A stretch of DNA of 28,061 nt from NCBI GenBank assembly GCA_020283715.1, contig JAIQCW010000187.1, positions 1 through 28,061 of the forward strand. The letters are read 5' to 3'. The position numbers were made by a program, and so were the translations under genes. The notes beneath the pieces are model-generated. The model was not told the DNA's origin and did no database searches. It saw only the letters and a program-made list of their open reading frames with translations. Positions 1 through 28,061 of the stretch are shown here, one piece after another; within the stretch, counting starts at the first letter, position 1; the number at the start of each line of letters is the position of its first letter. This DNA is from Cytauxzoon felis. Lineage: Eukaryota > Apicomplexa > Aconoidasida > Piroplasmida > Theileriidae.

Positions 1-225
1 AGCTCTTCCAATCACCTATCTCTAAAGAGTATAGCCACTCCCAGAGATCGTGGCAATGATAAAGGTAGTAAGGATGTAACCTCAAGTGGAAGTGGAAAAC
101 CTGTAAGCGATCTATGGGAGCTGAAAGGGGAACTAAATAGAGAAGGCTGTCTGCAAGACGAAAGAAAGGTTGTAACCTCAGGTGGAACGCCTAGTGGAAA
201 AGTAGTTGGATTGGACCTCGGTGGA
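1..225 (+). repeat. Mosaic fold-back element E1 (truncated by window edge, in coding frame)
   Basis: Contains the CTCTAAAGAG hairpin (20-29), a GCCACTCCCAGAGATCGTGGC block, a GATCTATGGGAGC block, and ends with three ACCTC(A)GGTGGA-type outer motifs. Read in frame 1 it gives NHLSLKSIATPRDRG and SDLWELKGELNR, the same frame used by E13 and E27. Confidence 0.85.
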
Positions 226-1228
226 AGACAAAATGTATTGGAAAGTACATTAACAGTTACTGATACGGTATATGGTCCTGAATTTAAGAAGTTTATTAAT
301 GAGGGTGATTCATTAATAACTGGTGCTAGATTAAGATCATTGACTGATGATATAATGAATTCTAATGATAAATTGAATTTTGAGTTGTATACTATTCCAC
401 ATGTATCTTCATATAAAGAATTATTTAAGAAGAAATCACTTCGTCAACGTATATATGATGGTGAGGTTAGTTGATGACTTTAAAAATATATATTACAATC
501 AGGTTATGTATTATGAAGATTATATAGAATCGAAAATGGTTGATGATTATATTTATTTATTTAAAAGACCATTTAAAATACCTAGACATGATTGGGGTGG
601 TGATTATTATTTTTATGGTCAAAAGATTAAATATAATGATGATGGAAGAATGATATCTACTAGTGATGATGATGGAGATGGTAATGAAGATGAAGATAGA
701 GATATAGATGATGATGATAAGAATGTATCATTAAATAAAATTACTTCACCAACATTTAAAAAATTAAATCAACATATATTAATGGATAGATATATTGATA
801 ATATACAAAGAGATGAAATGTTAAATGGTAGAATACCCACATTATTTAAAAAATTACCTACAGATTATATTAAAAAAAAATCTAGAAAAGATCGTTGGAT
901 TAGTTTTAATAATTTAAAAACATTTGGACATATGGTAAATTCTGTTACAAAATGTCCATTATTACATTTACAAATACAAAATGCACTTCAATATGGTTGG
1001 AATTATAAATTACAAGGTGATATTTTAAATAAAATATCATATAATAATAATAAATCTAATGATTTATATCATGTTAATAATGATATCATACAAAAAGCTA
1101 ATAATATTCTTAAAGAAAGATTTAATAATAATGATAATTATATACCCAATCTTAATACACTCTTCAAAAATAAACTCAATATCAATGATAACTTTACAGC
1201 TATAGGTGGAGGTAGATATCAAATTTAA
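1..1228 (+). CDS. Unknown acidic protein, 5'-partial, two exons visible
   Basis: Proposed exons are <1-465 and 503-1228 with a 37-nt intron (466-502, GTTAGT...CAATCAG) in phase 0. The frame is open from the first base of the window, so the start lies upstream. The first ~70 codons are a repeat element translated in frame. After that comes a lysine-rich protein with a run of Asp/Glu around nt 658-720 and Asn-rich C-terminal stretches, ending GGGRYQI before TAA. I recognise no family, signal peptide or membrane span. The repeat-derived part could instead be the tail of an intron, but I see no AT-rich TATAG acceptor after it, unlike all the repeat-bearing introns in this window. Confidence is good that it is coding and low on function. 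Confidence 0.75.
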
Positions 1229-1297
1229 CAACCCCATATCTACACTAGTATTTTACATTTTAAAAAATTTAATAATTATATTCAACCTCTCTTCGCC

Positions 1298-1597
1298 TTC
1301 CACTTGAGGTCCAATCACTACCTTCATTCCACTCGCCGTGGTGGCCTTCTCTATTTACTTCCCCTGAAGGGTAGAGCCACTCCCAGAGATCGTGGCAGTG
1401 AGAAGGGTAGAGATGGATCATCCATCATGGGAATGATGGAAGATGGTGCTAAGTTTGTGTTGGATGTAACCTCAAGTGGAATACCTGGAAGCGATCTACG
1501 GGAGCTGGAAGGGGAAATAAATAGAGAAGGCCACCACGGCGAGTGGAATGAAGGTAGTGATTGGACCTCAGGTGGATTGGATTGGACCTCGATTGGA
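1298..1597. repeat. Mosaic fold-back element E2, near-perfect 66-bp arms
   Basis: Left arm 1300-1365 and right arm 1510-1575 are reverse complements with two mismatches over 66 bp, including the private spacer CAATCACTACCTTCA. The centre holds a CCCTGAAGGG hairpin (1362-1371), a GCCACTCCCAGAGATCGTGGC block and a GATCTACGGGAGCTGG block. It lies just 3' of the first gene. An open frame over 1304-1660 is simply this element and is not called as a gene. Confidence 0.9.
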
Positions 1598-1660
1598 AAT
1601 GAAGTTGATAATAATTCTAATGATGTTATTTGTATTATATTTGGATTCGGGAATATTTAA

Positions 1661-2793
1661 TTGTGTATATGATACTACGTTAGATTTTCTGATGGTACTT
1701 TGATAATCTAATGATAATATTTGTTGTAAATTATTATTTTAAGGTATAAAATTTAATTTTGCTATAAATTTTCATTTATATATTAGTGTCTTCTATTGTT
1801 AGTTTATTATTAATTAGTGTTATTTAATGTTGTGCTTGAAAACGTTCTTGTCTAATTAGTTATTATTATTGGTGAAATGTGTTAAAATGTGGATGAAAAT
1901 ATCATAATTTAAACAGTTTCCATAGATATTATAACTGTTTCTGGAACTTATAATGATCATTAATATGATTTTATTATTCTTAATAATAAATTTATATTTC
2001 TATTATATAATTCCCATATTGATTAATATAAATTATAAATTATACATAAATCTACAAGTATCCAATCTGTAAATACATCCATCACATCTATACATCATGT
2101 ATCACTTATTTATTATAATATTAGACATTTAACTATTATTACATAAAAAATATTTAGTGAGGCGTTGTTATGGGGTCATTTTACATATGATCATAAGTTA
2201 TCATAGTTTTACATTACACTACACTATAATAAGACTATAAATTAATATAAAATGATTTAATATTATAAATAATTATCAAGAATCTAAAATTTTACAAAAT
2301 TTTTATATCATAACATATTAATTATATACTCTATTCATCATAGTCATTAACATATAAATACATGTAACCTATAAAGAAATTAAATTATAATATTTATTAT
2401 ATATGAAATTAATTGTATTATATATTATAATGTAATTTTTATTATTCAAATTTATTTTATTTAAGAATCTAGTACATATAAATGGGTTAATGATGATATT
2501 GTGATTACCCTCGCACAATATAAATAGGGTGTAGATTAATTACTAGCATGAACGATTATTCTGCCAACACTAGGGTATTATGAATATTTAAATATATATT
2601 CTATAAAATTACATACTCTAAAGAATGTGTATGGAATTGAATATATTAAATATAATCGCAAATATCATATGGTAATCTATCGAATATTCACCGCAATAAT
2701 CTACACATGATCAACAGAACACACCAAATAATACACTATAACATAATCTATTTATTAATCAAGAATGAATGGAGTTGATTAGATATTGTCTAC
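1661..2793. other. AT-rich intergenic region, no gene seen
   Basis: Over 1.1 kb of roughly 80% AT sequence with dense stops in all frames. I found no exon chain, tRNA or convincing RNA gene. It could hold UTRs and the promoter of a gene outside this reading. Confidence 0.6.
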
Positions 2794-3046
2794 TTCACCT
2801 GAAGTCAATCCGACAACCGTTAGGTCTAGGTCCAATCCATTCCTTCTCCACCTCTTTTCATCCTGCCGTCAGCTCTTTCAATTACCTATCTCTAAAGAGT
2901 AGAGCCACTCCCGGAGATCGTGGCGGTAGAGAAGGTAGTGATTGGACCTCAAGTGGAAACCTCAGGTGGGACCCGCAGCTGATCTCAGGGAAGCGAAGGG
3001 GGGAGTAAATAGAAGAGCTGACGGCAGGATTAGACCTTAAGTGTAA
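2794..3046 (+). repeat. Mosaic fold-back element E3 (intergenic)
   Basis: Starts near TCACCTGAAGTC and ends GACCTTAAGTGTA. It carries the CTCTAAAGAG hairpin, a GCCACTCCCGGAGATCGTGGC block, an internal GGACCTCAAGTGGA, and a CCCGCAGCTGATCTCAGGGA block followed by GAGCTGACGGCAGG. Confidence 0.85.
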
Positions 3047-5327: not shown

Positions 5328-5399
5328 TGTCATTATATATCGTATATTATTATCTATATTCCATCAGAGGAGGCCATTCATCATCGACGTTACACATGA

Positions 5400-5567
5400 T
5401 GTCGTCTTGCAGACAGCTTCTCCTATTACTTCCCCCTTCGCTTCCCTGAGATCAGCTACGGGTTCCACCTGAGGTCATGTACTCACTAACTCACCTTCCT
5501 TTCCACTCGTCGTGGAGGCCTCTTCTATTTACTTCTCCCTCCGCTTCCCTGAGATCAGCTACAGGTG
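5400..5567 (-). repeat. Mosaic element E4, tandem of two GATCTCAGGGA-type modules
   Basis: Contains two copies of the module ending GAGATCAGCTACGGGT / GAGATCAGCTACAGGT, the first preceded by GTCTTGCAGACAGCTTCTCC and the second by CCACTCGTCGTGGAGG. A TTCCACCTGAGGTC end lies between them, so this may be two abutting partial elements. Confidence 0.8.
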
Positions 5568-5914: not shown

Positions 5915-6063
5915 ATTCCTCCGGGTTAACATCGCCGCGATCTCTGGGAGTGGCTATACTCTTTAGAGATAGGTAAATAGAAGAGGCCTTCACGCCTAGT
6001 GGAACAGTTGAAGGTAGTGATTGGACATCGAGTGGAATAGTTGACTGTTCTTCCGGGTAGACA
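5915..6063 (-). repeat. Mosaic element E5 (convergent 3' region)
   Basis: Starts with CCTCCGGGTTAAC and ends with GTTCTTCCGGGTAGACAC, two copies of the CCGGGT unit in the same direction. In between are GCGATCTCTGGGAGTGGC, the CTCTTTAGAG hairpin and a TTCACGCCTAGTGGAA variant of the CCACGGCGAGTGG block. Confidence 0.8.
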
Positions 6064-6160
6064 CACACACTCATTGATGATAAATGTATATAAAAATCTT
6101 GTATTAAGATGTACTTGATCAATACATAATTATATATAAATTGGTTTTAATTAAAATTAA

Positions 6161-6860
6161 TTAATTTTTATCTTCTAAATTATTTTTCCTGCGATTTAAT
6201 CTTCTAATTTCATTCCTCTTTTGTTTTATTGCGATTTTTAGTAAATGTCTTTCGTCATGTAATCTGTACATTGTATGACTACGTGATAATATTTGTAATT
6301 GCTCTGGTAAAGGTCTTAAATGATGTAATGAATCAGCATGGATTTTGGCCTGTTCTATAAGTGGCTGTTTATCCTTTCTCCAATACTCTGTAATAGTCTC
6401 ATTCAACATCTTATCCAATACTATCGAAGCATTAGACAATATCCGTTCCATACTATCTAAACCGGTCAATAATAAGGTGATAACATCATCTATATATTAA
6501 AACAATAAAATAGGTATATAATCAGTAGAGTTCCCACGCCTCGCAAATTAATTTCCACCATCAGAAGTTAATCCTATTCTCTTTCCACTCGCCGTTCCAC
6601 CTGAGGTCCTGCCGTCAGCTTCTCTATTTACTTCCCCTCGACTCCCATGGATCGCTCTCGGGTAGTCCACTCGAGGTTACATTACCACCATCACCTCTGC
6701 CACGATCTCTGGGAGTGGCTCTACTCTTTAGAGATAGGTAATTAGAAGAGGCTCCACGGCGAGTGGAAAGAGAATAGGATTGTATCTCAAGTGGACATAA
6801 CCGAACAATAATCGATATATATGTAACGTCAAGACCCATTAAAAATAGATATGGGAACAT
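6161..6860 (-). CDS. Unknown small basic protein, two exons (130 aa)
   Basis: Model: exon 1 is 6797-6860 (ATG at 6860), exon 2 is 6161-6489. The 307-nt intron carries repeat element E6. The junction joins TTA T|AT GAT in frame and gives 130 aa. An alternative start is the Met eight codons in (MGLDVTYIS). The protein has a hydrophobic segment near VTYISIIVRLYDVITLLL, then an amphipathic helical stretch (DSMERILSNASIVLDKML) and a very basic tail, IKQKRNEIRRLNRRKNN. I do not recognise the family; the basic tail and size would suit a ribosomal or membrane-anchored accessory protein, but this is only inference. Exon 2 is secure. Exon 1 rests on phase and on the donor GTCCAC touching the repeat edge. 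Confidence 0.6.
6569..6795 (-). repeat. Mosaic fold-back element E6 (intronic)
   Basis: Outer arms 6570-6595 and 6756-6781 are perfect 26-bp reverse complements, running through a private spacer (CCTATTCTC) into CCACTCGCCGT. Inside lie GATCGCTCTCGGGT, a CCACTCGAGGTTAC motif, and the CTCTTTAGAG hairpin. Confidence 0.9.
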
Positions 6861-6906
6861 AAAATGGAATAGAGGAATATAAAATCAATTATTTTCCACT
6901 ATTCAT

Positions 6907-7535
6907 TTATGCTACTACGTCTGCCTTAGCAGCAGCTGCACCGTGTTTCCATGCACCTTCTTTAGAGAAGAATCCCCTAGATGCTAAATCAGAGAACAAA
7001 TGTTTGCATGGGTGATCAAAACCTGCCCTAAGACCGGCAAGAGCAGTGTCGAAGAAGTGAGCAGGTACTTCATCATATAAGAATCCTAGTCTCAAGTGAA
7101 CTGCTGATTCATCACTGAATAAAACTTTGACCAAGTAGAATCCTTCGAATCCACCAAAGAATACTTCAGTAACGTGAAGACCTACTGGAGCATCCCATAG
7201 GGCAACACCACTAACACTCAAATGCTTAAGGGCATGACCTTGGAGTACTACAACATGATGGCAAAGATCCTTATGAAGTGCTTTCAAATCTACTAAAGCA
7301 CCTGCAACATGTGGATGTGCCAAGTCAAGAGATGGAGAAGATCAAGAAGAAATTCACAAACAGTTTCTCCACTTGAGGTCTTTCCACTGGGCGTGGCGCC
7401 TCTTCTATTTACCTCCCCGTAAACGGTAAAGCCACTCCCAGAGATCGTGGCGATGTTCAACCCCTAAGAACAAGAATTCTACCCGGAAGAACAGATCTCA
7501 AGTGAATACAATAGGAAATTGGAGGTGGAATACAT
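6907..7535 (-). CDS. Unknown protein with atypical, G+C-richer codon use; 5' end uncertain
   Basis: The secure part is the 3' exon 6907-7301, open and ending in TAA, encoding a His- and Gly-rich stretch that includes GGFEGFYLVKVLFSDES and ends AAAAKADVVA. It uses GGT, GCT, GTT, CAC and TTC freely, unlike the AT-extreme codons of its neighbours, which suggests high expression. There is no ATG in the open frame, and an in-frame TGA lies just upstream. The only AG between that stop and the coding part is TTGCAG at 7302-7303, a plausible acceptor. A tentative first exon, 7493-7535 (ATG TAT TCC...), fits the phase and would give 145 aa with a 191-nt intron holding element E7, but its donor GTTCTT is weak. 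I do not recognise the family. Confidence 0.5.
7368..7505 (+). repeat. Mosaic element E7 with CCGTAAACGG hairpin variant
   Basis: Begins TCCACTTGAGGTC and ends ATCTCAAGTGA. It has a CCACTGGGCGTGG variant block, the hairpin variant CCGTAAACGG (7417-7426), GCCACTCCCAGAGATCGTGGC, then GTTCAACCCCTAAGAAC and TCTACCCGGAAGAAC. Confidence 0.85.
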
Positions 7536-7563
7536 GAGATATGAGTGACGGGTGGAAAATAGT

Positions 7564-8877
7564 TTATAGTTTAGGTATAAACATACTATTTATGTTGAAG
7601 AGTTGATTGAAGGGTGTATGTGTGATATAATTATACCATGTACCGAATCTCATATGTATGGATAATCCAGCTTTATGTAATTTATTGGTATAGAAATTAT
7701 GTTCATATAATTCATTTGCGATATTTTTAATATTAATTTGTCCAATTTTATACAATTTTTTATATAAATCTCTAGTAATTGATAATATTTCTCTATTATA
7801 ATGTTGTTGTTTATATAAATAATTTGGATCATTTCTATAATCTGTATCTAAATGCCTAATATTTATAATTTTATTATGAAGTGTAAATGGTAATATTAAA
7901 TTGGATGTTGATGCCTTTATTGATGCAATTTTACTACGAAATGTAATATAACCTCTACCATTACATTGATAAGGATCCAATTCATGACTCTCACATTTAC
8001 AAAATGATACTACACCATATTTACTAAAAAAACGCCTCAAACGTTCCTGTAAATACTCCGGTGTCCTACCCATTGGTAAACCATTCAATTCTATCGTATT
8101 CGGACCATATATCAATAATACATCACTCCTATACAATTCATATATAATACACATGAAGGAATGTAGTTATTACACCGGAAGTCCAAACCTTATCTTCTAC
8201 TCGCCGTGGAGGCCTCTTCTATTTACTTCCCCCTCAAGTTCCCAGAGATTGTTCTCGGGTATAAATTCTAATCTCGTCGAGATAAAGATAAAGTGATGAA
8301 ATGTATGTTTGTTGGGATATCTAAATGAATACAAATTGGAATGAAGTGAGGATGATGAAACTAGATACAATCATCAAAATCCTTTTCAATGATGTATTGT
8401 AATCAAAAATTCATCCAATATTCATTTAGTTATCTTCAGTAGTTTCCCCAGAAATTCAAGATTTCCTTCAAATTTTGGGGGTGAAAATGAAGTAGTGGAA
8501 CTAGTGAATATGACCTCAGGTGGAGAACCCGTAGCTGATCTCAGGGAAGCGAAGGGACAACTAAATAGAAGAAGCCGCCACGGCGAGTGGAAAAACAAGG
8601 TGGAGTAGATGATGGTGGATTGTAACTTCAAGTAGAGAAGGTAAAGATTGGATAATATTTAAGTAGCTATATTCATTTAGGTAGTAATATAGACATACCT
8701 GTTATAAGGTTGATCATACATCCAATTAATTTTTTTATTGGTGACATTTGAGATATGTGGATAATGTAGTATACTATTATCCATTCTAACATATGGTTTT
8801 GTAAAGAACCATTTCATCTTGGAGGCACCTGGATAAGGGTATCCGGCCATTTTTAATGTGTTGGATAATTTAATCAT
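7564..8877 (-). CDS. RRM-domain RNA-binding protein, two exons (247 aa)
   Basis: Exon 1 is 8699-8877 and exon 2 is 7564-8128; the 570-nt intron (donor GTATGTCT, acceptor TTGTATAG) holds two repeat elements. The junction AAC AG|G AGT restores ...YNRSDVLLIYG in frame. An RRM fold spans about residues 65-135: RNP2-like TIELNGLP (71-78) and RNP1-like CNGRGYITF (115-123), with a helix TPEYLQERLRRFFSKYG between. The N-terminus (MIKLSNTLKMAGYPYPG) and the basic 110-residue C-terminus have no other domain I recognise. The RRM points to RNA binding; the target and compartment are not evident. A mitochondrial RNA-processing or ribosome role is possible but only a guess. It starts 142 bp from the divergent Tim44-like gene. 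Confidence 0.85.
8173..8260 (-). repeat. Partial mosaic element E8 (intronic)
   Basis: Short copy: CACCGGAAGTCC end, CTACTCGCCGTGGAGG block, and an AGAGATTGTTCTCGGGT variant of the GATCT module. It shares its intron with E9; together they could be the two ends of one element split by 250 nt of unrelated AT-rich sequence. Confidence 0.75.
8511..8636 (+). repeat. Partial mosaic element E9 (intronic)
   Basis: Starts TGACCTCAGGTGGA, then CCCGTAGCTGATCTCAGGGA, CGCCACGGCGAGTGGA, and ends GTAACTTCAAGTAGA. It is in the opposite orientation to E8 in the same intron. Confidence 0.8.
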
Positions 8878-9019: not shown

Positions 9020-10529
9020 ATGAATATCGCAAGATTTAATTTTGGTAAAAATTTTCTTAAAAATATATTAAATATAAATCGCAATTATAATTTTGATAGG
9101 AAAAAGTGTTTTACTACAGTATTGGATGGTATAAAGGATGATACCGTTACAAGTATTGATAAAGGTGATTATTTGAAGATATTAAATGTTATGAGTGAGA
9201 AATCAAATAAATTTATGAATTGTTTAGAAAAATGTAAAAATGAATTACAAAAATTATCTATAGAATCATATCCATTTAAAAAACATGAACTTTCTACATT
9301 GATTGATCTATTATCGAACATATTAACTCTACAAAATAAAGATGATTCAAAATTATTAAATCTTTTACTTCATGAATTTCATAATAATAATAATTTTACA
9401 GCAAGTATAGAATTATGTAAATTATTTTCTGGCCGTAACAATTGTTACTCTAAACAACCATCATCATTCTTAACAAGATTTGTATACAATCAAATTGGTA
9501 TCATAGGTGCTAAATTTTTAGCACCTAAATCAATGGATGTACTAAATAATGTAAGTTGGATTTATATATTCCTTCAAGTACAAAGCCACATTTTCTAGAA
9601 AAAAAAACTTCTTCCTAATATTATTATATAGGAATATCGGGAAGGTGTGAAATATGCACTAATTTCACTATCAGATTCAATAACAAATCAAGATTTCGAT
9701 ACACTTCAATCATATTGCGATCCAAAACTCTATAAATTTCTCAAAGATGGTATCGAATACCTCAATAACCTCAAACTCAAAGTATGTCCACACCAAATAT
9801 ACCGCAACCGTTCTACTCTCCACTCCACCCGAGGTCCAATCCAACTCTTCTTCCACTCGCCGTGGTGGCTCTCCTAATTATTCATCTCTAAAGAGTAAAG
9901 CCACTCCCAGAGATCGTGGCAGAGGTTGAAGTCAGTGATTGGACCTCAAGTGGAAGTGGAGTACCTGGAAGCGATCTACGGGAGCTGGAAGGGGAAGTAA
10001 TTAGAAGAGGCCTCCACGGCGTGTGGGAAAGGAGTTGGATTGGATCTCAGGTGGACTGTTCATTTTAATTATTTGTTTTATATAAATATTATAGATAAAG
10101 TATAATATGTTGGTGGTGGAGAGTGTTGTATTGGATAGGTTTTTGATAACAATTGGTGGTAGGCGTAATGATAATATAAAGGGTTTATATATATTTAAAG
10201 AGGCAATTGCTCATCAGATAATAATATCTCAACCTAAGAAGTTGATTGATGAAGATGATTTAGCAAAGAATCGTGAACTTGTATTTAGTACATTTGAAAA
10301 GGGTGTGATTTTACGTATGGAAGTATTGGTTAAAGTACAACAAGCATTATCATTAAGTGATGATGTTGAAGTTGTATGGATGGATGATAGCCCTAATTGC
10401 ATCCATCGATTATGTTTTGAATCTGAACTTAAACTTGAAGAAACAGATCAACGTATAATTTTCAATCCAACTGAATGGTCATTAGTCGATATCAATGGTA
10501 TACTCAATAATAATAATCCATTAATCTAA
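9020..10529 (+). CDS. Tim44/MAIP1-like mitochondrial protein, three exons (371 aa)
   Basis: Exons 9020-9550, 9632-9781 and 10095-10529; introns are 81 nt and 313 nt, the latter holding element E10. All junctions are phase 0 and give 371 aa. The N-terminus (MNIARFNFGKNFLKNILNINRN) is basic, amphipathic and lacks acidic residues, as in a mitochondrial presequence. The C-terminal ~220 residues resemble the Tim44-like fold shared by Tim44, the bL45m/Mba1 group and MAIP1: EYREGVKYALISLSDSI...DFDTLQSYCDPKLYKFLKDG, then LVVESVVLDRFLITIGG and a final W (FNPTEWSLVDING). That fold binds the mitochondrial inner membrane. Which member it is cannot be settled by eye; a Mba1/L45-type membrane-ribosome linker is also possible. 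Confidence 0.75.
9824..10055 (+). repeat. Mosaic fold-back element E10 (intronic)
   Basis: Left end TCCACCCGAGGTCCAATCC matches the right end GGATTGGATCTCAGGTGGA in inverted orientation, including the private spacer CCAATCCAACTC. Inner parts are CCACTCGCCGTGG, the CTCTAAAGAG hairpin, an internal GGACCTCAAGTGGA, and AAGCGATCTACGGGAGCT. Confidence 0.9.
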
Positions 10530-10647: not shown

Positions 10648-10833
10648 TCCACATGAGGTCCAATCCTACTCCTCATTGTGGTATTCCTTCTCTTCGTCTT
10701 GCAGACCGCTTCCTTATTTACTTCCCCTTCCAGCTCCCGTAGATCGTTCTCGGGCATTACAATTGAGGTCTGTTCTTAGGGGTTGATCATCTTCGTTATT
10801 CCGGGTTAACATTTTTTGTTCCTCCGGGTAGAC
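10648..10833 (-). repeat. Mosaic element E11 with CCGGGT units
   Basis: In the convergent region downstream of the Tim44-like gene. TCCACATGAGGTCC end, GTCTTGCAGACCGCTTCC, CCCGTAGATCGTTCTCGGG, then three GTTC-type units (TTAGGGGTTGATC, TTCCGGGTTAAC, CTCCGGGTAGAC). Confidence 0.8.
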
Positions 10834-10953
10834 ATCGAAGAAATTTCATAGGTCCCCCTACTCTCAATTATCCACTTGTAAATCCCATCATAACAACATC
10901 TCATATAACAATTGTATTAATTAATGAAGTTCACCAAAAGAATCACAATGATT

Positions 10954-11082
10954 GTAACCTCAAGTGGAATACCCGTAGCTGATCTCAGGGAAGCGAAGGG
11001 GGAACTAAACAGAGGAGCTGACGGCAGGACAACCTCGGGTGGAGACTGCAGGACCAAGAGAGATGTATTGGACTTCAAATGG
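10954..11082 (+). repeat. Partial mosaic element E12
   Basis: GTAACCTCAAGTGGA, CCCGTAGCTGATCTCAGGGA, GAGCTGACGGCAGG, ACCTCGGGTGGA, ending GGACTTCAAATGGA. It lies 120 bp from E11 in the convergent gap before citrate synthase; E11 and E12 may be two ends of one element. Confidence 0.8.
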
Positions 11083-17277: not shown

Positions 17278-17398
17278 TCCACCCGAGGTCCAGTCCTCTC
17301 ACATTAATACACCTTATCTTCTACTCTACCTTCCTTTCCCATTGCATGGAGCTCTTCCTTTTAGTTCCCCTTCCAGCTCCCGTAGATCGCTTCCAGGT
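17278..17398 (-). repeat. Partial mosaic element E19 (convergent 3' region)
   Basis: TCCACCCGAGGTCC end and TTCCAGCTCCCGTAGATCGC module between the converging 3' ends of the aldo/keto reductase-like gene and the lipoyl-like gene. The middle is degenerate. Confidence 0.75.
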
Positions 17399-17424
17399 AG
17401 ATATTTTACACTCCTCTCGCTGTA

Positions 17425-17955: not shown

Positions 17956-17977
17956 TTTTTTAAATTAAAATTCATCC

Positions 17978-19580
17978 TCATAATTTTGTATTGACAATCC
18001 TCTCGTAAATTTGACGATAAAATGATAATCGCCTATACAGTCCCAATATACACTCAATATCCTGTGTTTATAAATTATGATTTACATTAAAGATAATATT
18101 ATCAAGATCCATTACTTATTCTAACTCCACTATTATATCCTGTAGATAGCTCTCCCCCTGAGGTTACAACCTTACCTTCCACTCGCCGTTCCACCTGAGG
18201 TCGTCTTGCAGACAGCTTCCTCTATTTACTTCCCCTCGGATTCCCGTAGATCATCCTCGGTATAATGTCTACCCGGAAGAACGTGATGAAGTATTGACTA
18301 GACCTCAAGTGGAAAACCCGCAGCTGATCTCAGGGAAGCGGAGGGGGAAGTAAATAGAGGAAGCTGTCTGCAAGACGACCTCAGGTGGAACGGCGAGTGG
18401 AAGAAGAGTTGGATTGACCCAGTGGAACAGCGAATGGAACATAGATGGATATATTCTTTCTGTAACTAACGTTTTTGATGAAGGCATCTTCTAGTGTATC
18501 TGTGATGTTTTTAATTTTGTCTTCAAATTCTGTTTTGATTTCTTCTAATTTCTGATGATCATTGATACATTCAATTCTCTCGTATACCTATTTGGATCAA
18601 TGTGTAATTATAATTTCATTAGACATACATCCATTATATCTTCTACTTGTATATCATCTGTTTTATTAATACCTTCATCAAACATCTGAAATTTATTGTC
18701 ATTTAAAAATTTATAACTCATTAACATACCTCTTTACCAAATTTGGTAATAAATAAATACTTTGCGCGTTGTTTATCATCCAGGAGTATATTATAATAAT
18801 TATTTATTATACTCGAATTATTATTTATAATCTCCAACTCATTAACCGATTTATTTATATTGTGATCCGGATGTAATACAAATTGATACTCTCTATAACG
18901 CCTATTCAATACACACTTATCTATCTTATACTCCTTTGTACTATTATATAAAAATATCATCATATATCTTACAACCTCTTCCACCTGAGGTCCAATACAA
19001 CTCCTTTCCACTCGCCGTGGAGGCTCTCCACCTGAGATCATCCTGCCGTCAGCTCTTTTAATTACCTATCCCTAAAGGGTGATGCCACTCCCAGAGATCG
19101 TGGCGATGATAGTGATTGGACCTCAAGTGGAATACCTGGAAGCGATCTACGGGAGCTGGAAGGGGAGATAAACAGGAGAGGCTCCACGCCTAGTGGAAAG
19201 AGAGTAGGATTGAACCTCAGGTTGAGAGATGTCTGCAAGACCAAGAGAGTAGGATTGGACCTCGGTGAGGTAACATTAGATGTGGTATTGAGTGTAAGAT
19301 ATGATATAGAGGGTAACATTTTAGGTGGAATATGAGAGTTGTGGATATGTTATCAACATACAAATTGAATAGATCATAGATATTGATTTTTTTCAACACA
19401 TTAGAATCTATGGGCCATTTACAGTTCTATATTATAAAAAATTATGGTTTAATATGTACATACTATACAAAAGAATTTATTTACATTGAGATTATCATTT
19501 AAGTGATTACATTTTATACAATTAAATGTACAAAAATTATATTTTATATTTGATATATATTTTAATTTATTTAAAATCAT
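17978..19580 (-). CDS. HSCB: HscB/Jac1 iron-sulfur cluster co-chaperone (J-domain), six exons (209 aa)
   Basis: Exons 19485-19580, 19362-19426, 18730-18940, 18629-18685, 18471-18587 and 17978-18061; introns 58, 421, 44, 41 and 409 nt, the two long ones holding elements E21 and E20. All junctions close in frame to 209 aa, normal for HscB. Cys17, Cys21, Cys24 and Cys34 recall the N-terminal metal-binding cysteines of eukaryotic HSCB. Then INIYDLFNFTKEYKID, the helix LNRRYREYQFVL, HPD (77-79), INNYYNILLDDKQRAKYLF, and a three-helix C-terminal domain (MFDEGINKTDDIQVEDIMDV..., IECILGLYRRLSFYRQIYERI). It stimulates the mitochondrial Hsp70 ATPase and delivers the scaffold IscU for Fe-S transfer. Its ATG overlaps the stop codon of the upstream gene as ATGA. 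Confidence 0.92.
18152..18426. repeat. Mosaic fold-back element E20 (HscB intron 5)
   Basis: GTCGTCTTGCAGACAGCTTCC on the left is matched by GGAAGCTGTCTGCAAGACGAC on the right, and CCACTCGCCGTTCCACCTGA by TCAGGTGGAACGGCGAGTGG. Inner parts are GATTCCCGTAGATCATCCTCGG, TCTACCCGGAAGAAC, GACCTCAAGTGGA and CCCGCAGCTGATCTCAGGGA. Confidence 0.88.
18979..19268 (+). repeat. Mosaic element E21 (HscB intron 2), CCCTAAAGGG variant
   Basis: TCCACCTGAGGTCC start; hairpin variant CCCTAAAGGG (19070-19079); GCCACTCCCAGAGATCGTGGC; internal GGACCTCAAGTGGA; AAGCGATCTACGGGAGCT; CTCCACGCCTAGTGG; two ACCTC ends at the right (19214, 19259), as if two ends were nested. Confidence 0.85.
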
Positions 19581-20875
19581 TTTTTTTCCTTTAATTTTAT
19601 AGGTATCTTTATCTTCTTTAAATTTTCATTACGTCTATTATCCACATATTCTCTCAAATCTAAACGTAATACCGGACTCTTTTTCTTCTATATTAATAAT
19701 AAATTATCATATAATAATCTATACATACATTATTCTCTATCATAAATAAACGATCATGATCCGATAATAACTCATCTATTAACCAATCCGGTATCATCTT
19801 CTCTACCTCATCACGCAATTGCTCACACGCATCAGATAACCATATCGGAAGTTTATAACCCAAATTCCTATACATATATATGAATAATGAACTTTCCACC
19901 CGAGGTTACAAACACTGATCCACTAGGCGTGGTGGCCTTCTCTATTTACTTCCCCTTCCAGCTCCCGTAGATCGCTTCCAGGTTCTCCACTCGAGGTTAC
20001 ATATACTACACTTCGCCACGATCTCCGGGAGTGGCTTTACTCTTTAGAGATAGGTAAATAGATGAAGCCGCCACGGCGAGTGGAAGATAGGGTTGTAACC
20101 TCGAGTGGAGTAGATATTGTATGATACATTCCATTATATTGTTATAAGATACCTTTCTTTGAGAGGTTTATTTTCGAGTGCGTATGTGATAGAGAAGATA
20201 TGATCTTTGAATGTTTTCCAATCGGATCTGGGCATGGTAGCGAGTATGAATTCTAGCATATATGATCTAACATTAGCATATTTTTGAGCTACTATAAGTG
20301 ATATAGTATATACATCCTATATAATGATATAATTTATATAATATATGAATACTTCTGCCATATCAGCTTCTATTAGACATATTATAGCACGTTCTATAAT
20401 AGATAATATACAAAACCATGGCATTATTCTTGGATCTGGTTTCATTAATGTAAATAATTTTTCATCTCTATATGTAGAAATATAAAATAATATTTATAGA
20501 AATTCATACTTTAATTTTTCAATTTCTTTAGACATGGCGAATTTAATATAAGAAATAAAATTCAAATCATATAAATGTTTATTTTTTTCAACCTATTTTA
20601 TTTTTTATTTATAAAAATCCAATAAGTAAACATACAAAATCATTAATTTTTTCGAAATCATTTAATGCCCATTCACATATCTGCTTTATCTTCCTCAATT
20701 GTATTTGCTCATCATTACACATATATATCTCCGCATCCTTATATAAACTTAATACAAACTCATTCAACATCTTCAATTTATCCTCCTCATTATCATCCTT
20801 CACAGGATTATTCATCAAATAACTCTTCATCAATGAAGGATAATCCTCAGATATCAATAAATCACTATATTTCAT
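19577..20875 (-). CDS. Unknown helical protein, six exons (283 aa)
   Basis: Exons 20636-20875, 20510-20592, 20353-20467, 20153-20316, 19729-19867 and 19577-19687; introns 43, 42, 36, 285 and 41 nt, the 285-nt one holding element E22; 283 aa with all phases matching. The sequence is helix-rich (MKYSDLLISEDYPSLMKSYL, PWFCILSIIERAIICLIEADMAEDVYTIS..., PIWLSDACEQLRDEVEKMIPDWLIDELLSDHDRLF) and ends in a basic tail, KIPIKLKEKK. No signal peptide or clear membrane span. I do not recognise it; the repeated helices could be an alpha-solenoid, but that is inference. The TGA stop shares TG with the ATG of HscB downstream, so the two coding regions overlap by 4 nt. Confidence 0.8.
19895..20109 (-). repeat. 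Mosaic element E22 (intronic)
   Basis: TCCACCCGAGGTTA and GTAACCTCGAGTGGA ends; CCACTAGGCGTGG on the left against CCACGGCGAGTGG on the right (imperfect match); CTCCCGTAGATCGCTTCCAGG; GCCACGATCTCCGGGAGTGGC; CTCTTTAGAG hairpin. Confidence 0.87.
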
Positions 20876-20891
20876 TATTTAAACAAATAAT

Positions 20892-21203
20892 GTCAACTTG
20901 AAGTTACAATGCAACTCTTCTTTCCCATTGCATGGAGCTCTTCTATTTACTTCCCCCTCCGCTTCCCTGAGATCAGCTGCGGGTCTTCCACTTGAGGTCC
21001 ATTAACTATATCACGTTCTTCCGGGTTGACATTCTTTGTTCCTCCGGGTAGAATTCCTGTTCTTAGGGGTTGACATATTTACGTTCTTCCGGGTAGACAT
21101 TATACCGAGGATGATCTACGGGAATCCGAGGGGAAGTAAATAGAAGAGCTGTCTGCAAGACGAAGAGAGGTTGGAAAAGATAGTGATTGTAACCTCAGGT
21201 GGA
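20892..21203. repeat. Mosaic element E23 with four ~23-bp-spaced CCGGGT units
   Basis: Lies between the 283-aa gene and the CS-domain gene (both -). TCAACTTGAAGTTA start and GTAACCTCAGGTGGA end. Units start at 21015, 21038, 21059 and 21083 and are followed by ACCGAGGATGATCTACGGGA and AGCTGTCTGCAAGACG. Confidence 0.87.
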
Positions 21204-21207
21204 GTAT

Positions 21208-23748
21208 TCAATATATTTGTATGTACAAACCGGTAATTATTGCAGATTGTGGGTATGATATTATCATTTGCTTGAAAGAGTTCATTGAGTAATAGTTTGA
21301 GTCGATTTTCCTAATTAATATTAATGAGATGTAAGTGATGTTAAAATTGATATACATTTGATTTCCATCTTTTTTTAATTTTTTTTTGAGTGTATCACCT
21401 ATTGAATGATATTTTTTAACGAGTAGACAATTTTCAATATTATATGGATCATTAAATATAATATCAAATGTATCTTCTACAATAATATCATCTAATTATA
21501 TAATAAGATATAAAAATGAATAATAATAATATACCTTTAATATTAACATTCATTTGTTCTTTAAACCAATCATTATCTGTATCAATTTTACTAATTTCTT
21601 CTTGTCTATATTTTGCAATACTATTTTCTTTATTTATTCTATCGAATACATTACTATAATAAATAAAAAATTTTTTTTATATAAAAAAATGTGTTAAAAA
21701 CTTATCATACTTTAATAATTCTTCATATTCATCATCAGTTAAATTTAAATCTCTAAAACTTTTCAATAATGATTTTATAGTATCAGTTGGTTGTTCTTTT
21801 TTTGTATGACGTAATGCCTCTGTTAATTCATTCAATAATTTCTTCTTATGTGATATATTTTCCTAAATAGAAAATAATATATTTTTCTATTCAATATTAA
21901 TTACTTCAAGTGTTATATTCGGTTTAGGTGATAAACCCCAATCAACAGTAATACCTAATTCCTCATCTACAAATGGTTTTGTATCATTAGATATCCTATA
22001 AAATCTATTACCACCAACTCTCTCTGCCAAACTTTCATGATATTTTATATAACCATCTATATCCTTAATACCAACAAATGCATTACTACCAGCATAATCA
22101 TAATCCGTTCTCGTCTCATCACCATTACTCCTATTATAAATATATATAATCAATATAATACAATAAAACCAATGCTCCACTCGAGGTCCAGTACTATTCC
22201 TCATTCCACTCGCCGTGGTGGCCTCTTCCAATTACCTATCTCTAAAGAGTAGAGCCACTCCCGGAGATCGTGGCGAAGTTCATGTCTGTTCTTCCGAGTT
22301 GAACTTTTTTCGTTCATCCGGGTAGAATTCCTGTTCTTAGGGGTAGACATATTTACGTTCTTCCGGGTAGACAAACCGAGGATGATCTACGGGAATCCGA
22401 GGGGAGGTAAATAAAGAAGCTGTCTGCAAGACGATGACAAGATATAGAAGAGAAGGATGGATCTCGAGTGCAATGTACAACATTTATGTATTTATAATCA
22501 TTCGGTTAAGTTTGGATATGATGAGTTTAACATACTTGATGGATAGTAATTTGATAGTATCGTGTTCGAATCGTTGTGCAAGTGTATTAATAGATTTGAT
22601 AAGTTTATGTTCGAGATCTTTACCAAGTTCTCCATTGAATATACGTGTAGTAGGTCCATTTAATAATATAAATTCAGATCCATTTTCAACATCTTTAATA
22701 ACAATATTTATATATTCATCTAAATCAATACCAACAAATAATAATTTACCACCAACATCATTCGATATAAATTCAAATTGAATATCTGTTCTAGGCCTAC
22801 CAAATGGTATCATATTCGTCCATTCACGACTTATCCAACGATTAAATAAATCCCTCAACTCAATACCACTCACACCCTCAAAACGCCTACTCCAAAATAT
22901 ACCCTCAGGATCCTTACTATAAATGTCAATATAATCACAATCAAAACAAAGCACAATCCAACTCTCCACCTGAGGTCCAATCACTATCATCATCTTTTCC
23001 ACTCGGCGTGGAGCCCCCTTCTATTTACCTATCTCTAAAGAGTAAAGCCACTCCCAGAGATCGTGGCGAGGTTAGTGACTATTGACTCGAGTGGAACCCG
23101 CAGCCGATCTACGGGAAGCGAAGGGGGAAGTAAATAGAGAAGGCTCCACGCCGAGTGGAAAGACCTACGGTGGAGCGGCAAGACGAAGTTAGATGGACTA
23201 GGAGAGAGTAGACAATGTTTTATTTATACTTAGCTTGTGTAGACATACCTTTGGCAGATGGACATATCTTCTAGCTTTAATTTTTCATTATAGTTTTTAT
23301 ATTGTATGACTTCATTGAATACAACTCCAAACCATTGTTGTTTACAGGTTTCTGCTTTTTTAATGGTAATGAGTAGTTCTTTACTACCATCTCTATCTTC
23401 TAATGTCCAAAATGTACCGTCTAAATCGATTTTACCTCTTGTATTACCAGTTATTAAAGGATTATTACTATCCTTATTAATAACATTTAGAGATTCCTTA
23501 TCAATTTCAACGGTTAAATCATTTGAAGTGACGTCATTCGACAATGGAGCGGTCACATAAATGAATTCTGTATCTTCTTTCCAAGAATAGCCATCAGTCA
23601 TACCCCAACCATCATTTAGACTTGGAATTCTATACCTTTTAATGTTGTGAACTTTGATATATAGACATTGCGATACTTTATTCAATGGTCTTCCATTATA
23701 TAAAACACATATGATATTTACACATGATAATAACGATATAAATATCAT
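21208..23748 (-). CDS. Secretory CS-domain (p23/NudC-like) protein, seven exons (~538 aa)
   Basis: Exons 23249-23748, 22536-22916, 21905-22130, 21711-21862, 21535-21653, 21356-21491 and (uncertain) 21208-21310. Introns are 332, 405, 42, 57, 43 and 45 nt; the first two hold elements E25 and E24. MIFISLLSCVNIICVLYNGRP is a strong signal peptide. Residues ~52-141 form a CS domain: DGYSWKEDTEFIYVTAPL, VEIDKESLNVI, GKIDLDGTFWTLEDRDGSKELLITIKK and QQWFGVV; Trp56, Trp114 and Trp139 sit where the family keeps aromatic residues. CS domains bind Hsp90 or client proteins; a secreted or ER version suggests an ER co-chaperone (inference). The rest, about 400 residues, is unrecognised and ends in Lys/Asp-rich helices. 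The last exon is ambiguous: joined as modelled it reads KIDSNYYSMNSF, but another frame (ENRLKLLLNELFQANDN) looks more protein-like. Confidence 0.8.
22176..22471 (+). repeat. Mosaic element E24 (intronic), four CCGGGT-type units
   Basis: TCCACTCGAGGTCC start, CCACTCGCCGTGG, CTCTAAAGAG hairpin, GCCACTCCCGGAGATCGTGGC, units at 22288, 22312, 22333 and 22357, then ACCGAGGATGATCTACGGGA, AGCTGTCTGCAAGACG, ending GGATCTCGAGTGCA. Confidence 0.87.
22965..23175 (+). repeat. Mosaic fold-back element E25 (intronic) with matched arm variant
   Basis: Arms 22996-23015 and 23142-23161 are perfect 20-bp reverse complements. They carry CTCGGCGTGG instead of the usual CTCGCCGTGG, changed in both arms. Centre: CTCTAAAGAG hairpin, GCCACTCCCAGAGATCGTGGC, CCCGCAGCCGATCTACGGGA. 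Confidence 0.88.
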
Positions 23749-23923
23749 TTATATTCTCGAGTAGTATACATTCTTCAGTATATTAATCTTGAGATTTCTA
23801 GCTTCATGGTGGGCCATGCCTACACATTAGTTTGTTATCACCATCAGAGTCAAAATCAAAATCATCGTCTATATACATACACATTTTGAATGACATCAGT
23901 GGAAATGTCTTTATATATTAATT
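23749..23923. promoter_or_regulatory. 175-bp divergent promoter region
   Basis: Separates the start codons of two predicted secretory-pathway proteins, the CS-domain protein (-) and the DDEL protein (+). Shared position and shared compartment make co-expression plausible. No motif recognised. Confidence 0.45.
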
Positions 23924-25326
23924 ATGATTCATTTATTAGTAATTTATATCTACATATCCGAAATTTATGCAGCGGTTGATGTACACGACATCAAGGTACC
24001 GGAAGCTCTGGATAAAGAGTCTTATAGTATGTCTAATTATCCAGTTTTATACACACATTCGCGTAGAAAAGGCAGTGAAAGTCACAGATAATCAAGCTTA
24101 TATCGAAAATGAACTTAAAGATCAATTAAAGAAGTTAGGGGAGTTACATTCATCACTTAACAATGTGTTACACAAGAGCGGTAATTTGGCGATTAAAAAT
24201 TGTCTTTACATTACATACTCAGATGACAATCCGAATAAAAAGCAAAACACTGATTCAATGAATTATAATGGTATGACTTTTAAATTACATTTTAACATTG
24301 ACACTCTTCTCAGTCTTTACGCTGGACAGTATGGAAGCACCCGTCATATTCCTAGAACCTCCCATGATCTTACCAAAGGATCAAATCAAGGTGATATTTG
24401 ATGGATAACCTATTTCAAACCTCATTGTAGGCTGATAAAGATGTGGAGAATCTACTGAAATCCACAGGATTAGAAAAAGATGTAGAAAATAAATCTTCAG
24501 ATCCATATTCAGTATGTCTATTTAGAGAATAAAATCAAAATCCATCAGATCACGTCAATAGATGAAGCAGAATTGGCTGAAAAATCAATTAAATCAGAAA
24601 TCACAAAATTGAAGCAAGACAGACACGATATCTTCAAAAGGTTTAACTTCAATTATAAAAACATATTCATCACACTTAGAATGAGAGCTAAGTCACTGCT
24701 CGTCGTTGATGACCCATCAATCCTTTCCGATTATAACGCGTTGAAGCATGGTACGTCTACACTACGTATCTTCAACCTCTATTCCACTCGAGGTCCAATC
24801 CGACTCTCTTCCACTAGCCGTTCCACCTGAGGTCCGTCCTGCCGTCAGCTCTCTATTTACCTATCTCTAAAGAGTAGAGCCACTCCCAGAGATCGTGGCG
24901 AGGTTAGTGACTATTGACTCGAGTTGAACCCGCAGCTGATCTCAGGGAAGCGGAGGGGGAAGTAAATAAAGAAGCTGACGGCAGGATTGGACCTCAGGTA
25001 GAAAGCTGTCTACAACGGTGTAAATAGTAATCTATGTGATAGAAACACATTGTCTATTATATTTACATGGGTGATATTAATTTATAGAGCTTGCTGAGAA
25101 GGACATGTTATTGAAGAGGGAGATAGAGAAGTTGACTCAATTGGAGCATGTAAAGGCTGCTTTGATAAATGTAAATTTAGTTTTCATATTGATTAAATGT
25201 AACTAGAAACATGGTGCTGGAAATGACGTTAGGGCGAAGGAGGAGGAATTAGAAGATAGAGAGGACGAATTAGCTGATGAAAATGACCATAAAACTAAAG
25301 ATGATGACGATGATGATGAATTATAG
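23924..25326 (+). CDS. ER-luminal protein with signal peptide and C-terminal DDEL, six exons (300 aa)
   Basis: Exons 23924-24026, 24067-24390, 24441-24511, 24549-24750, 25088-25170 and 25207-25326; introns 40, 50, 37, 337 and 36 nt, the long one holding element E26; 300 aa. The N-terminus MIHLLVIYIYISEIYAAVDV is a signal peptide. The body is charged and helical, with likely coiled coils (IENELKDQLKKLGELHSSLNNVL; KSIKSEITKLKQDRHDIFKRF; DMLLKREIEKLTQLEHVKAALI). The last residues are an acidic run ending DDDDDDEL, resembling HDEL/KDEL ER-retrieval signals; with the signal peptide this suggests an ER-resident protein. Function unrecognised. Two acceptors (AAAG at 24440 and CATCAG at 24548) were chosen because nearby TAG acceptors break the frame, so exons 3-4 have slight uncertainty. 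Confidence 0.82.
24783..25012 (+). repeat. Mosaic fold-back element E26 (intronic)
   Basis: TCCACTCGAGGTCC start; CCTGCCGTCAGCTCT on the left against AGCTGACGGCAGG on the right; CTCTAAAGAG hairpin; GCCACTCCCAGAGATCGTGGC; CCCGCAGCTGATCTCAGGGA; GGACCTCAGGTAGA end. The stretch 24892-24930 is nearly identical to part of E25. Confidence 0.85.
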
Positions 25327-25457
25327 GTGTAGACATTGATGTATTGTACGGCATACAAGATGTGTGGGATTCTTTGTTATAAAACCCAATTTTGAAATAA
25401 ATAATTAATTATAACGATGTATGATTATATGATGTATATTAATTGTAGTTAAATAAA

Positions 25458-28061
25458 ATGAATGATATAGAATTGATTACACATTTGAAAAAATTGGTTG
25501 GAGATGATGTGAGTAAGGTATTGATGGACGGTGGTATTAAATTGAATGTTAATGAGACGGTATATAGTATAGATGATGTTAATATATTATTTACAAAGGA
25601 TATAAATGATGATATTGATAGGATATTATTATTATTTGAGGTATTGATTAATAATTATTATAGATTATATGAGTTGTATCCTATAGTACGTAAGTTATTG
25701 GCTGTTATACAGGGTCATATAAGACATTTATATAAATGTACATCGATTGATATAGATGATAGATTATATACATATAACAATTTGATGTGTAATATGTTAG
25801 ATGAATTATATAATGGATTAGGATTTAGATTTGAATGTGTAGAATCATATGATTTTACATTGAGTAAATTATCTAATATATTATATAGTTTATATAATAT
25901 ATTGAATATATCATTATCAAAATGTGATTATTCATCATCATCATCATTAGAGTATTTGGTATGTACTGTATTATATGGTACATTACAATATGTAACATGT
26001 TCATTATTAATTTATTTAACTATTGATGATAATATACCAGAAGATGATATAAAAGGTGATTATAAACCTATAACAATAGCTAAAAATTCATTGGATAAAT
26101 TTAATGATGTAAATTTAGATGAATTAATATGTCCAACTGTATCTAATACAACCACTAATTGTAAAAATCTTACCGTACAAGGTAATATCAGAGATGGTAA
26201 TACTCAATCAGAAACTTCATTACTTTATCTCAATGAAGTATCCAATTCTATCGCTATGCAATCTAGCCGTACCAACAATCTACAATCCAATTCTACACAC
26301 GATGTCCAATCCAACTCTCTTCGTCCTGCAGACAACTCTCCACTCGAGGTTACAACCACTGTTCCACTCGGCTCCACCGTTGGTCTTGCAGACAGCTCTC
26401 CTAATTACCTATCTCTAAAGAGTAAAGCCACTCCCGGAGATCGTGGCAGTGTATACCCGGAGGAACAGAAAATGTCAACCCGGAAGAACAGACCTCAAGT
26501 GGAACCTGGAAGCGATCTACGGGAGCTGGAAGGGGAAGTAAATAGAATAGGCCACCACGGCGAGTGGAATGAAGATAAGGTTGTAACTTCAGGTGTAACA
26601 CCGAGTATAGAGTATGACAAGTCAATGATGTCTACACAATCATCTAGGGGTGATGTTACACCATCTACATTATCATCTAATCCTTCATTATTATCTACTT
26701 GTATATTGATTATGGATATTATGTATAAATGTGATTTAATTGATGATATATTATGGTGTAAACATATTATTATTCCTATGTTAGATGTTTTATATTATGG
26801 TTTATATATTAAAGGTAATTTACTTATTAAGAAAAGATATATTATGGATACTATTATTACTTGTAGTATTAATATATTTAATTCTAATAATATTAATAAT
26901 TGTTGTTCATTATTAATACGTTATATTAATGAAATATTATTAATTACTAGTAGTATACTTGTTAAAATAAATAATAATATTAAAACTGTACTTATTATAC
27001 AATATAATATAGTACAAAACACTACAAAATTAACCCCATTAAAATATAATAAACCCAACATTAAAGATATAAATAATACAAATAAAATAAATAATAGAGA
27101 TATAAATTCATATATACATTTAAATGAATTAAAATTATATTTAGATGAATTTTATAAAGATTATGAATATATATATAAATGTTCATTTAATTATTTATCA
27201 TCATTAATAGATGATCCAATAGAATATATAGAAATAAAAGATGATAATAAATTAATAAATATAATAGAAGATATAGATTTAATACAAATATTATGTCAAG
27301 TAATAATAAAAATTACAACATTTATACAATTATCAGATTCATTTATATATATAACAAAACGTAATCCTAATTTTGATATTGTTATACAATTAAAACAAAT
27401 TGTAGAACAATCATTTTTATTTTTAAAATTATATATAAAAAAATTACCATTTAGATTAATAAATGCTATTTTTTATTATTTAGGTAGTAAATTTAATAAT
27501 AATAATTTATCTGCACAAATATATTTATTTAATATTATAATATCACATTATAATTTAACAAATGATAAATATTATAAACAATTTATTAAAATGATTTATA
27601 ATATATTCAAATCATCTAATAATAATACATGTCATTTTATTTCATTTCAACAAGTTTGTTTTTTTTATTATATTAAATATAATCATATCTTATCATAATA
27701 TAGACAAATTCATTAATATCTAAACAATTATCATCAAAATATCTAATATTATCATTAGATTTATTAACTAAATTCTTCCTAATTGAATTAACACAATTAA
27801 ATGATTTTAAAAATGGGTATAATCATTATCAACACAATTTCTATACATCTTCTATAGATTACTCGAATTATTCGCTAAATGGATCACCAGTAATTACATC
27901 TATGAATACTATACAGCCAAACTATTATGCAAATTCATCGTCAGGTATAAATTTAATTACTTTATTCATCTCATCTAATCCAATCCATCTGAAGTCCAAT
28001 CCTACTCTTCTTCCACTCGCCGTGGAGGCTTCTTCCAATTACCTATCTCTAAAGAGTATAG
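25458..28061 (+). CDS. Large unknown protein, 3'-partial, two exons visible
   Basis: Exon 1 is 25458-27653 (ATG AAT GAT ATA GAA), intron 27654-27703 (GTTTGT...AATATAG, 50 nt), exon 2 is 27704-27944; then donor GTATAAAT opens an intron that holds element E28 and runs past the window end. That gives at least 812 residues. The protein is Leu/Ile/Asn/Tyr-rich and mostly helical, with a Ser/Asn-rich disordered middle into which repeat element E27 is translated (about residues 283-380). No motif, signal peptide or catalytic signature that I recognise; the long helical halves could form an alpha-solenoid (inference). Reading on without the 50-nt intron would stop at 27698. Confidence 0.8.
26304..26596 (+). 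repeat. Mosaic element E27 inside a coding exon
   Basis: Carries two ...GCAGACA(A/G)CTCTC units, CCACTCGAGGTTACAACC, the CTCTAAAGAG hairpin, GCCACTCCCGGAGATCGTGGC, CCCGGAGGAAC and CCCGGAAGAAC units, AAGCGATCTACGGGAGCT and CCACCACGGCGAGTGGA. It is fully open in the host frame, giving NYLSLKSKATPGDRG and SDLRELEGEVNR. The ends GGTTACAACC and GGTTGTAACTTC are inverted. Confidence 0.87.
27984..28061 (+). repeat. Mosaic element E28 (intronic, truncated by window end)
   Basis: TCCATCTGAAGTCC, CCACTCGCCGTGGAGG, AATTACCTATCTCTAAAGAG; the rest lies outside the window. Confidence 0.85.

Follow-up and report, generated by a model that had tools for sequence, protein, structure and literature searches.

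Short GC-rich blocks recur along a 28,061-nucleotide contig of the piroplasm Cytauxzoon felis (GenBank assembly GCA_020283715.1, contig JAIQCW010000187.1, positions 1 to 28,061 of the forward strand; this whole stretch is referred to below as the window). The blocks are assembled from a small set of modules and fold back on themselves, raising the question of what kind of element they represent and how its copies come to differ in composition. Here we describe them as a single repeat family whose modules are small hairpins set in a fixed order, whose positions are stable while their content turns over, and some of whose copies lie in frame within protein-coding genes. The family is probably a short, non-autonomous, palindromic element of the C. 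felis nuclear genome.

A repeat family spread across the C. felis genome

The core sequence GCCACTCCCGGAGATCGTGGC was matched 17 times in the window (up to three mismatches) against 0 expected, and the end sequence CCACYTGAGGT 54 times (up to one mismatch) against 0.28 expected. Across the genome (8,623,106 bp, up to two mismatches) the core occurred 2,775 times, 1,370 forward and 1,405 reverse, while the reversed control pattern gave 0 in the same search. Confinement to this locus, which would have removed the novelty claimed by an earlier sequence-only reading of the window, is therefore not what is found.

The anatomy of the repeat was studied in 228,061 bp, comprising the window, the first 140,000 bases of contig C9 and, from contig C4, six pieces of 10 kb each; this sample was chosen non-randomly, and its C9 portion is contiguous. 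Elements were delimited by k-mer clustering, which gave 323 clusters; 170 of them reach 60 bp or more, with a median length of 233 bp. These 170 occupy 17.4% of the sampled sequence (repeated k-mers alone, 15.6%) and have a GC content of 0.50 against 0.32 overall, and extrapolation to the genome gives ~6,400 clusters and ~1.5 Mb. For comparison, the available text of the genome report gives 9.1 Mb in 361 contigs, 31.8% GC (PMC3748084) and 4,323 genes (PMC3748084). Within the window 27 clusters of 68-429 bp were delimited, compared with the ~28 copies of ~90-430 bp counted by the sequence-only reading. Elements adjoin nuclear-type genes on contigs that include ones of 122,558 and 145,424 bp, and the genome contains at least 145 matches to the FAINT domain, which points to the Theileria/Cytauxzoon lineage. 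Their spacing on C9 is more regular than random (coefficient of variation 0.73 vs 0.94, p=0.001). Together these results identify one repeat family, real and spread across the genome.

Modules are hairpins with type-specific stems

The fold-back character noted in the sequence-only reading was borne out by folding: 60 sampled elements of 150-350 bp had a median z of -4.2 relative to dinucleotide shuffles, compared with -0.01 for 58 neighbouring stretches. The modules designated F, E, G and I look different and have in common an 11-nt loop, TCCCNNAGATC, closed by different stems. Among 279 instances of this loop in the whole sample, 277 lie in elements, and 255 of these are flanked by three complementary closing pairs, where 87.9 would be expected were the two sides independent. 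The stems fall into seven types, four common (110, 95, 27 and 16 instances) and three rare (4, 2 and 1).

Similar behaviour was observed in other slots. Stems of the S slot (CTC/GAG, CCG/CGG, CCC/GGG) were complementary in 91/132 instances (39.9 expected), and those of the B slot (GCC/GGC, GGC/GCC) in 99/112 (58.5 expected). In the X slot, where GTCT/AGAC, CTCT/AGAG or CCAT/ATGG surround TGC, 90/199 were complementary (27.4 expected); the pattern used here also catches the P module, which accounts for most of the non-complementary instances. The modules are thus small hairpins in which the loop is conserved and the complementary stems differ by type.

Order is fixed and slot occupants vary

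Read from the left, an element consists of an end module, an X hairpin, the motif TATTTAC, an S hairpin, an F or I hairpin and a central slot; to the right of the centre follow an end module, a G or E hairpin, GTAAATA, an X hairpin and a further end module. The main hairpins of the 170 elements are arranged as + then - in 100, as a single + in 27 and as a single - in 25, with none in 6 and more complex orders in 12. In all 100 elements having exactly one of each main hairpin, + precedes -. The pairs formed in these two-hairpin elements are F-G (63), F-E (25), I-G (9), I-E (2) and F-I (1), and never two of the same subtype (0/100 vs 33.9 expected), so that, with one exception, an element has a polarity, with F or I on one side and G or E on the other.

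Occupants of the left and right X slots are near-independent (the same in 35/94 elements vs 29.5 expected, p=0.13). The strings of modules are distinct in 83 of the 100 two-hairpin elements, and some orders recur. What varies is the occupant of a slot, the number of outer modules and the orientation, and the order itself is fixed; the free reshuffling, with no order repeated, that had been proposed for the window does not hold.

The shared outer ends proposed at the same time also proved to be overstated. An end module is the outermost recognised module at 76/139 left ends and 62/139 right ends, and at both sides in 36/139 elements, so that the family has no uniform terminal inverted repeats. 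At the 36 clean ends the termini are mostly complementary (YTCCAC/GTGGAR). The central slot is filled alternatively by H/J hairpins, by an AT-rich core of 223 bp (core 1) or by a second core of ~320 bp.

Stable positions and turnover in place

The loci L015 (1103-3007) and L021 contain paralogous genes, the L015 open reading frame (ORF) matching FAINT and hydrolase profiles in Pfam. They share two element sites, one intronic and one in the 3' flank, and at both sites the two copies have opposite orientation and different modules. A DNA search gave 15 matches to this gene family, of which ten were read (L015, L021 and eight more). The same intron is occupied in all ten, with differing modules: eight copies are forward and two reversed, and four are without the G/E side. 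By inspection, the GT and AG of these introns lie outside the element, in host sequence. In L015 and L042 the left junction appears by eye to be identical letter for letter, and the centres are opposite. In the 3' flank a recognisable main hairpin was seen in 7/10 paralogs, one forward and six reversed (five of these orientations rest on one hairpin), and in two other paralogs just end or X modules are recognisable; the sequence retrieved for the tenth did not extend far enough.

These comparisons indicate that positions are old and stable, and that module content is young, changes and flips. The simplest reading would be that inverted arms recombine, or that other copies serve as donors in gene conversion. 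Separately, inspection by eye showed an insert in the centre of the L041 intron copy that was not noticed in the remaining nine paralogs.

Empty sites were sought by means of the DNA flanks, and no spanning match was found for the 170 elements of the sample. A permissive paralog scan returned mostly AT-rich noise and served only to point to L022. For the 749-aa protein encoded by an element-bearing ORF of the window, no homologue was found among 8,000 scored candidates, and hence no outside empty allele.

Copies within protein-coding genes

Elements of 100 bp or more number 154, and 19 of these lie within a single ORF that stays open for at least 90 bp to either side of the element; the 18 ORFs concerned encode 275-887 aa. 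The sequence-only reading had placed copies in both exons and introns, and both were found (introns by inspection), with the remainder outside long ORFs. Adding the first element of the window and one in the cf76 gene gives 21 exonic copies, in 20 of which the F hairpin is read in sense frame 0 and in one in antisense. Sense frame 0 is stop-free in 47/122 elements with one F hairpin, and each of the other five frames in 0-8. The frame bias is thus largely passive, since frame 0 is often stop-free and the copies had been selected for lying in an ORF. Spacing gives a further test, one not wholly independent of that selection: F and the second hairpin are separated by a multiple of three in 14/14 exonic elements, and non-exonic ones are distributed 30/18/28 across the three phases.

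When one element peptide was compared with the genome, 52 of the 150 matches scored (among 3,665 candidates) lay in ORFs of at least 250 aa, a count that includes three ORFs twice and the query's own, and in which the scoring favours open frames. Host ORFs match the Pfam profiles for kinesin, CAF1B/HIR1, MFS_1, the gamma-tubulin complex and also LCCL; in one Pfam scan, two of eight element-bearing ORFs had no match. Three tandem MFS-like paralogs (the third scoring just below the Pfam cut-off) differ in that an element is present in the central loop of one and absent from two. In the exonic element at L021:1675-2189, within a gamma-tubulin-complex-like ORF, the right-side peptide is tandemly repeated.

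Ratios of synonymous to non-synonymous differences were similar in exonic and non-exonic copies for the G segment (8:21 vs 81:142, p=0.41), the E segment (5:17 vs 29:57, p=0.44) and all segments pooled (36:86 vs 169:461, p=0.58). Strong selection on the peptide was thus not supported pooled or in G and E, the SF segment leaning to constraint (see below), and in the pooled data the exonic peptide shows no clear amino-acid constraint.

An element within the cf76 antigen gene

Primers for the C. felis antigen gene cf76 are listed in the available text of PMC3748084, and its 33-nt start primer has a single exact match in the genome. An element occupies ~2030-2313 of locus L038, within the ORF of this expressed gene (2,169 nt including the stop in the genome; stated as 2,172 bp in PMC3748084). 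From the genomic ATG to the end of the fragment-1 primer, which lies within the element, is 720 nt, and the cf76 fragment amplified from cDNA is given as 720 nt (PMC3748084), indicating that the element is present in the mRNA. Two of the published fragment primers lie within the repeat, making cross-priming possible. Moreover, part of the cf76 protein is element-coded peptide related to peptides of many other ORFs, so antibody epitopes may be shared.

Elements in the window and their central cores

The elements of the window are listed below, with the position and sign of the core where matched; all were delimited as k-mer clusters, with the long form at 8195-8641 combining a cluster (right half) and an alignment (centre, which recurs elsewhere).

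1-230, plus strand: element, exonic by reading, cut by the contig start; core + at 34; sense frame-0 peptide open
1283-1592, plus strand: near-perfect fold-back element; 1290-1600 folds at -178.5 kcal/mol
2796-3030, plus strand: element; core + at 2904
5401-5562, no strand assigned: partial element
5916-6063, minus strand: element; core - at 5934
6580-6796, minus strand: element; core - at 6699
7366-7494, plus strand: partial element; core + at 7431
8195-8641, no strand assigned: long-form element; left half ~8195-8260 by eye, AT-rich centre (core 1) 8278-8500, right half 8512-8641
9815-10055, plus strand: element flanked by coding segments and, by eye, probably intronic; also supported by fold
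10648-10835, no strand assigned: partial element
10952-11076, no strand assigned: partial element
12816-13244, plus strand: element in a 301-aa ORF, sense frame 0 (ORF test and frame reading)
14341-14712, minus strand: element with central H/J hairpins, probably intronic (by eye), 3' of an ORF matching Aldo_ket_red
14981-15139, plus strand: element, probably in an intron of the Aldo_ket_red-matching gene (by eye); core + at 15118
15379-15532, plus strand: element, probably intronic in the same gene (by eye); core + at 15477
16000-16288, plus strand: element; core + at 16111
16554-16760, plus strand: element of I/G type
17278-17399, no strand assigned: partial element
18157-18430, plus strand: near-perfect fold-back element of I/G type; 18140-18450 folds at -178.7 kcal/mol
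18977-19273, plus strand: element; core + at 19084
19895-20114, minus strand: element; core - at 20015
20925-21206, minus strand: element of G/I type
22175-22456, plus strand: element of F/I type
22954-23188, plus strand: element; core + at 23047
24781-24999, plus strand: element; core + at 24879
26304-26595, plus strand: element in the 749-aa ORF (25449-27698), sense frame 0 (ORF test and frame reading)
27989-28056, plus strand: element cut by the contig end

The Aldo_ket_red match lies in 13949-14467 (55.4 bits), and the ORF following the element at 15379-15532 matches the end of the same profile at 14.6 bits, under the cut-off.

The two AT-rich cores of the central slot were located as follows.

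Core 1, 223 bp: window 8278-8500; also in L025, L028, L023, L010 and L007
Second core, ~320 bp, three copies: L009:5343-5663, L021:6901-7218 and L024:7036-7363

Genome-wide, core 1 gave 40 scored matches among 396 candidates. It was considered as a gene and as a structured RNA. The first reading was rejected, as codon phases in seven copies (0.123/0.128/0.125) give no coding periodicity; the second is weak (z -1.81), with double changes in 3/47 pairs and an unfavourable covariation term. An additional 164-bp piece of the second core is present in L023, and its L024 copy sits between two half-elements.

Proposed mechanism and alternative explanations

The reading that we consider probable is that of a short non-autonomous palindromic family in which each slot holds one of a few alternative mini-hairpins, and copies persist at old positions. 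Because copies are short, alike and have inverted arms, they may undergo recombination, gene conversion or template switching, within one copy or between several, and such exchange would replace slot occupants and invert the centre in place; recombination or template switching would be what performs the module exchange. New insertions would be rarer than exchange in place, and insertion itself may be self-propagating, that is, selfish. Exonic copies would survive only in phase, as one of the six module frames is largely stop-free, and their product would be a tolerated passenger peptide that is probably disordered. More tentatively, we put forward a specific form of this proposal: a nuclear repeat without a classical transposase in which the hairpin slot would be the unit of inheritance, copies staying at ancient positions while hairpins may be swapped and the centre flipped by recombination or template switching among thousands of copies, and which may also be a mobile protein-coding palindrome adding ~60-200 residues to housekeeping and antigen genes.

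Several observations weigh against this proposal. No new insertion was seen directly, and the difference between the MFS-like paralogs could reflect two losses. Target-site duplications were absent from 36 cleanly ended elements (k=2-10, offsets 0-4), the best of 225 settings being k=4 with 2 observed vs 0.16. Retention of the intronic copy in every paralog read would also be expected from a host function. In the SF segment differences are more often synonymous in exonic copies (23:48, 32% synonymous) than in non-exonic ones (59:262, 18%; p=0.015 uncorrected), so some constraint on the peptide is possible. Arm-templated copying within one element was not supported: the best self-match beat the best match to another element in 0/170 cases (a comparison biased by length, as other elements may match over their whole length), and agreement between left and right X occupants is at chance. 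Finally, the H/J hairpin has no excess of complementarity (9/100 vs 8.5 expected), and for the first B hairpin complementary stems are of one type only (92/469 by a permissive pattern). Few stems carry a purine adjacent to the loop, with 16 instances genome-wide and none complementary over three pairs (the end letters of the pattern leave some instances out). Since hairpin subtypes are few, stem compensation amounts to ~15 types over four slots and not to many independent events.

The alternative that survives best, although unlikely, is an ordinary family of miniature inverted-repeat transposable elements (MITEs) or foldback (FB) transposons, whose autonomous parent and transposase have escaped detection or been lost and whose mosaicism arose by later gene conversion. 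Like such transposons, the Cytauxzoon elements are palindromic, short, interspersed, numerous and without a transposase gene of their own; their clean termini are mostly complementary, and the longer forms with core 1 at their centre recur in the genome. Unlike them, they lack a target-site duplication, for which the sequence-only reading had asked that a check be made, and their termini are non-uniform, with end modules at both sides in about a quarter of elements (36/139); orientation changes at a single site, and core 1 shows no coding periodicity. The transposase families searched, DDE_3, MULE and Y1_Tnp, had no match in the genome, and the sole RVT_1 locus found in a six-frame search (G000:C56:73693-74436, L031) is the telomerase reverse transcriptase, so that, for these families and telomerase apart, the absence of both enzymes noted for the window holds genome-wide. 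In addition, a survey of 64 apicomplexan genomes, in its available text, characterises them as almost devoid of transposable elements and without Class II elements (PMC9141347), lists none in C. felis and drops MITE candidates as likely false positives (PMC9141347).

A host-functional RNA or DNA structure near every gene, acting at transcript ends, in splicing or as a chromatin boundary and kept by selection, is decidedly improbable. It would fit the even spacing on C9, the filled intron of all ten paralogs and the conserved loops with complementary stems, but sits poorly with both orientations at the same site, the missing G/E side in four of those ten introns, the copies in exons and an extrapolated number of clusters (~6,400) exceeding the published gene number (4,323). 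Very improbable is a retroposed structured RNA resembling a short interspersed element (SINE), copied in trans and made mosaic by template switching between RNAs, which near-independent slot occupants and strong RNA folds would suit, but for which the only reverse transcriptase found is that of telomerase and no duplication was found.

Relation to known systems and significance

Introner elements also occur in many copies, some of them in introns. The Cytauxzoon repeat differs from them in that, in the ten paralogous introns read, the element does not supply the splice sites, which belong to the host flanks; other copies are exonic.

Searches outside C. felis returned little: Rfam at gathering thresholds gave no match in the window, viral contigs contained no exact core match, and a collection of genome contigs gave a single match to the exact core 20-mer, in a Gemmatimonadetes metagenome-assembled genome, at about chance level. 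The repeat is undescribed in the C. felis literature searched, in the available text of sources including PMC3748084, PMC6310948, PMC10058880 and PMC9860807, which accords with the earlier statement that no piroplasm repeat of this build was known; a 2013 thesis by Tarigo, cited in PMC9860807, may mention it.

Two systems offer closer parallels. Rickettsia palindromic elements are reported, in the available text, to lie in frame in unrelated genes in nearly half of cases and to encode a conserved peptide (PMC10969869). The Cytauxzoon elements are likewise short, palindromic and in frame in the ORFs of unrelated genes, but reside in a eukaryotic nucleus, follow a slot grammar of interchangeable hairpins and have far more copies; the exact core 20-mer is in no Rickettsia of the searched collection, the Rickettsia palindromic element sequences themselves not having been compared. 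The GC clusters of yeast mitochondria, taken here together with double-hairpin elements, undergo merging and shuffling, and a single site may show both stand-alone and merged forms, according to the available text of PMC4478555. They share with the present repeat a GC-rich palindromic structure, an AT-rich genome and shuffling, whereas the Cytauxzoon copies are nuclear, mostly 100-370 bp, multi-module, of fixed polarity and present in coding exons, and a duplication of the AG/ACT kind was not found in them. By analogy, the repeat works like Rickettsia palindromic elements and yeast mitochondrial GC clusters combined, in a nucleus, and membership of neither is claimed. What is added here is that the modules are hairpins, that genic copies are in frame and that positions are stable with turnover of content.

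Taken together, about a sixth of the sampled sequence belongs to one repeat family, within a group held to be nearly free of transposable elements. The family provides a eukaryotic nuclear case of protein-coding palindromes, part of it lying in ORFs and one copy or more being present in cDNA, and the overlap of cf76 with the repeat bears on serology and cloning. Exchange of modules in place can be read from paralogs and is testable in isolates.

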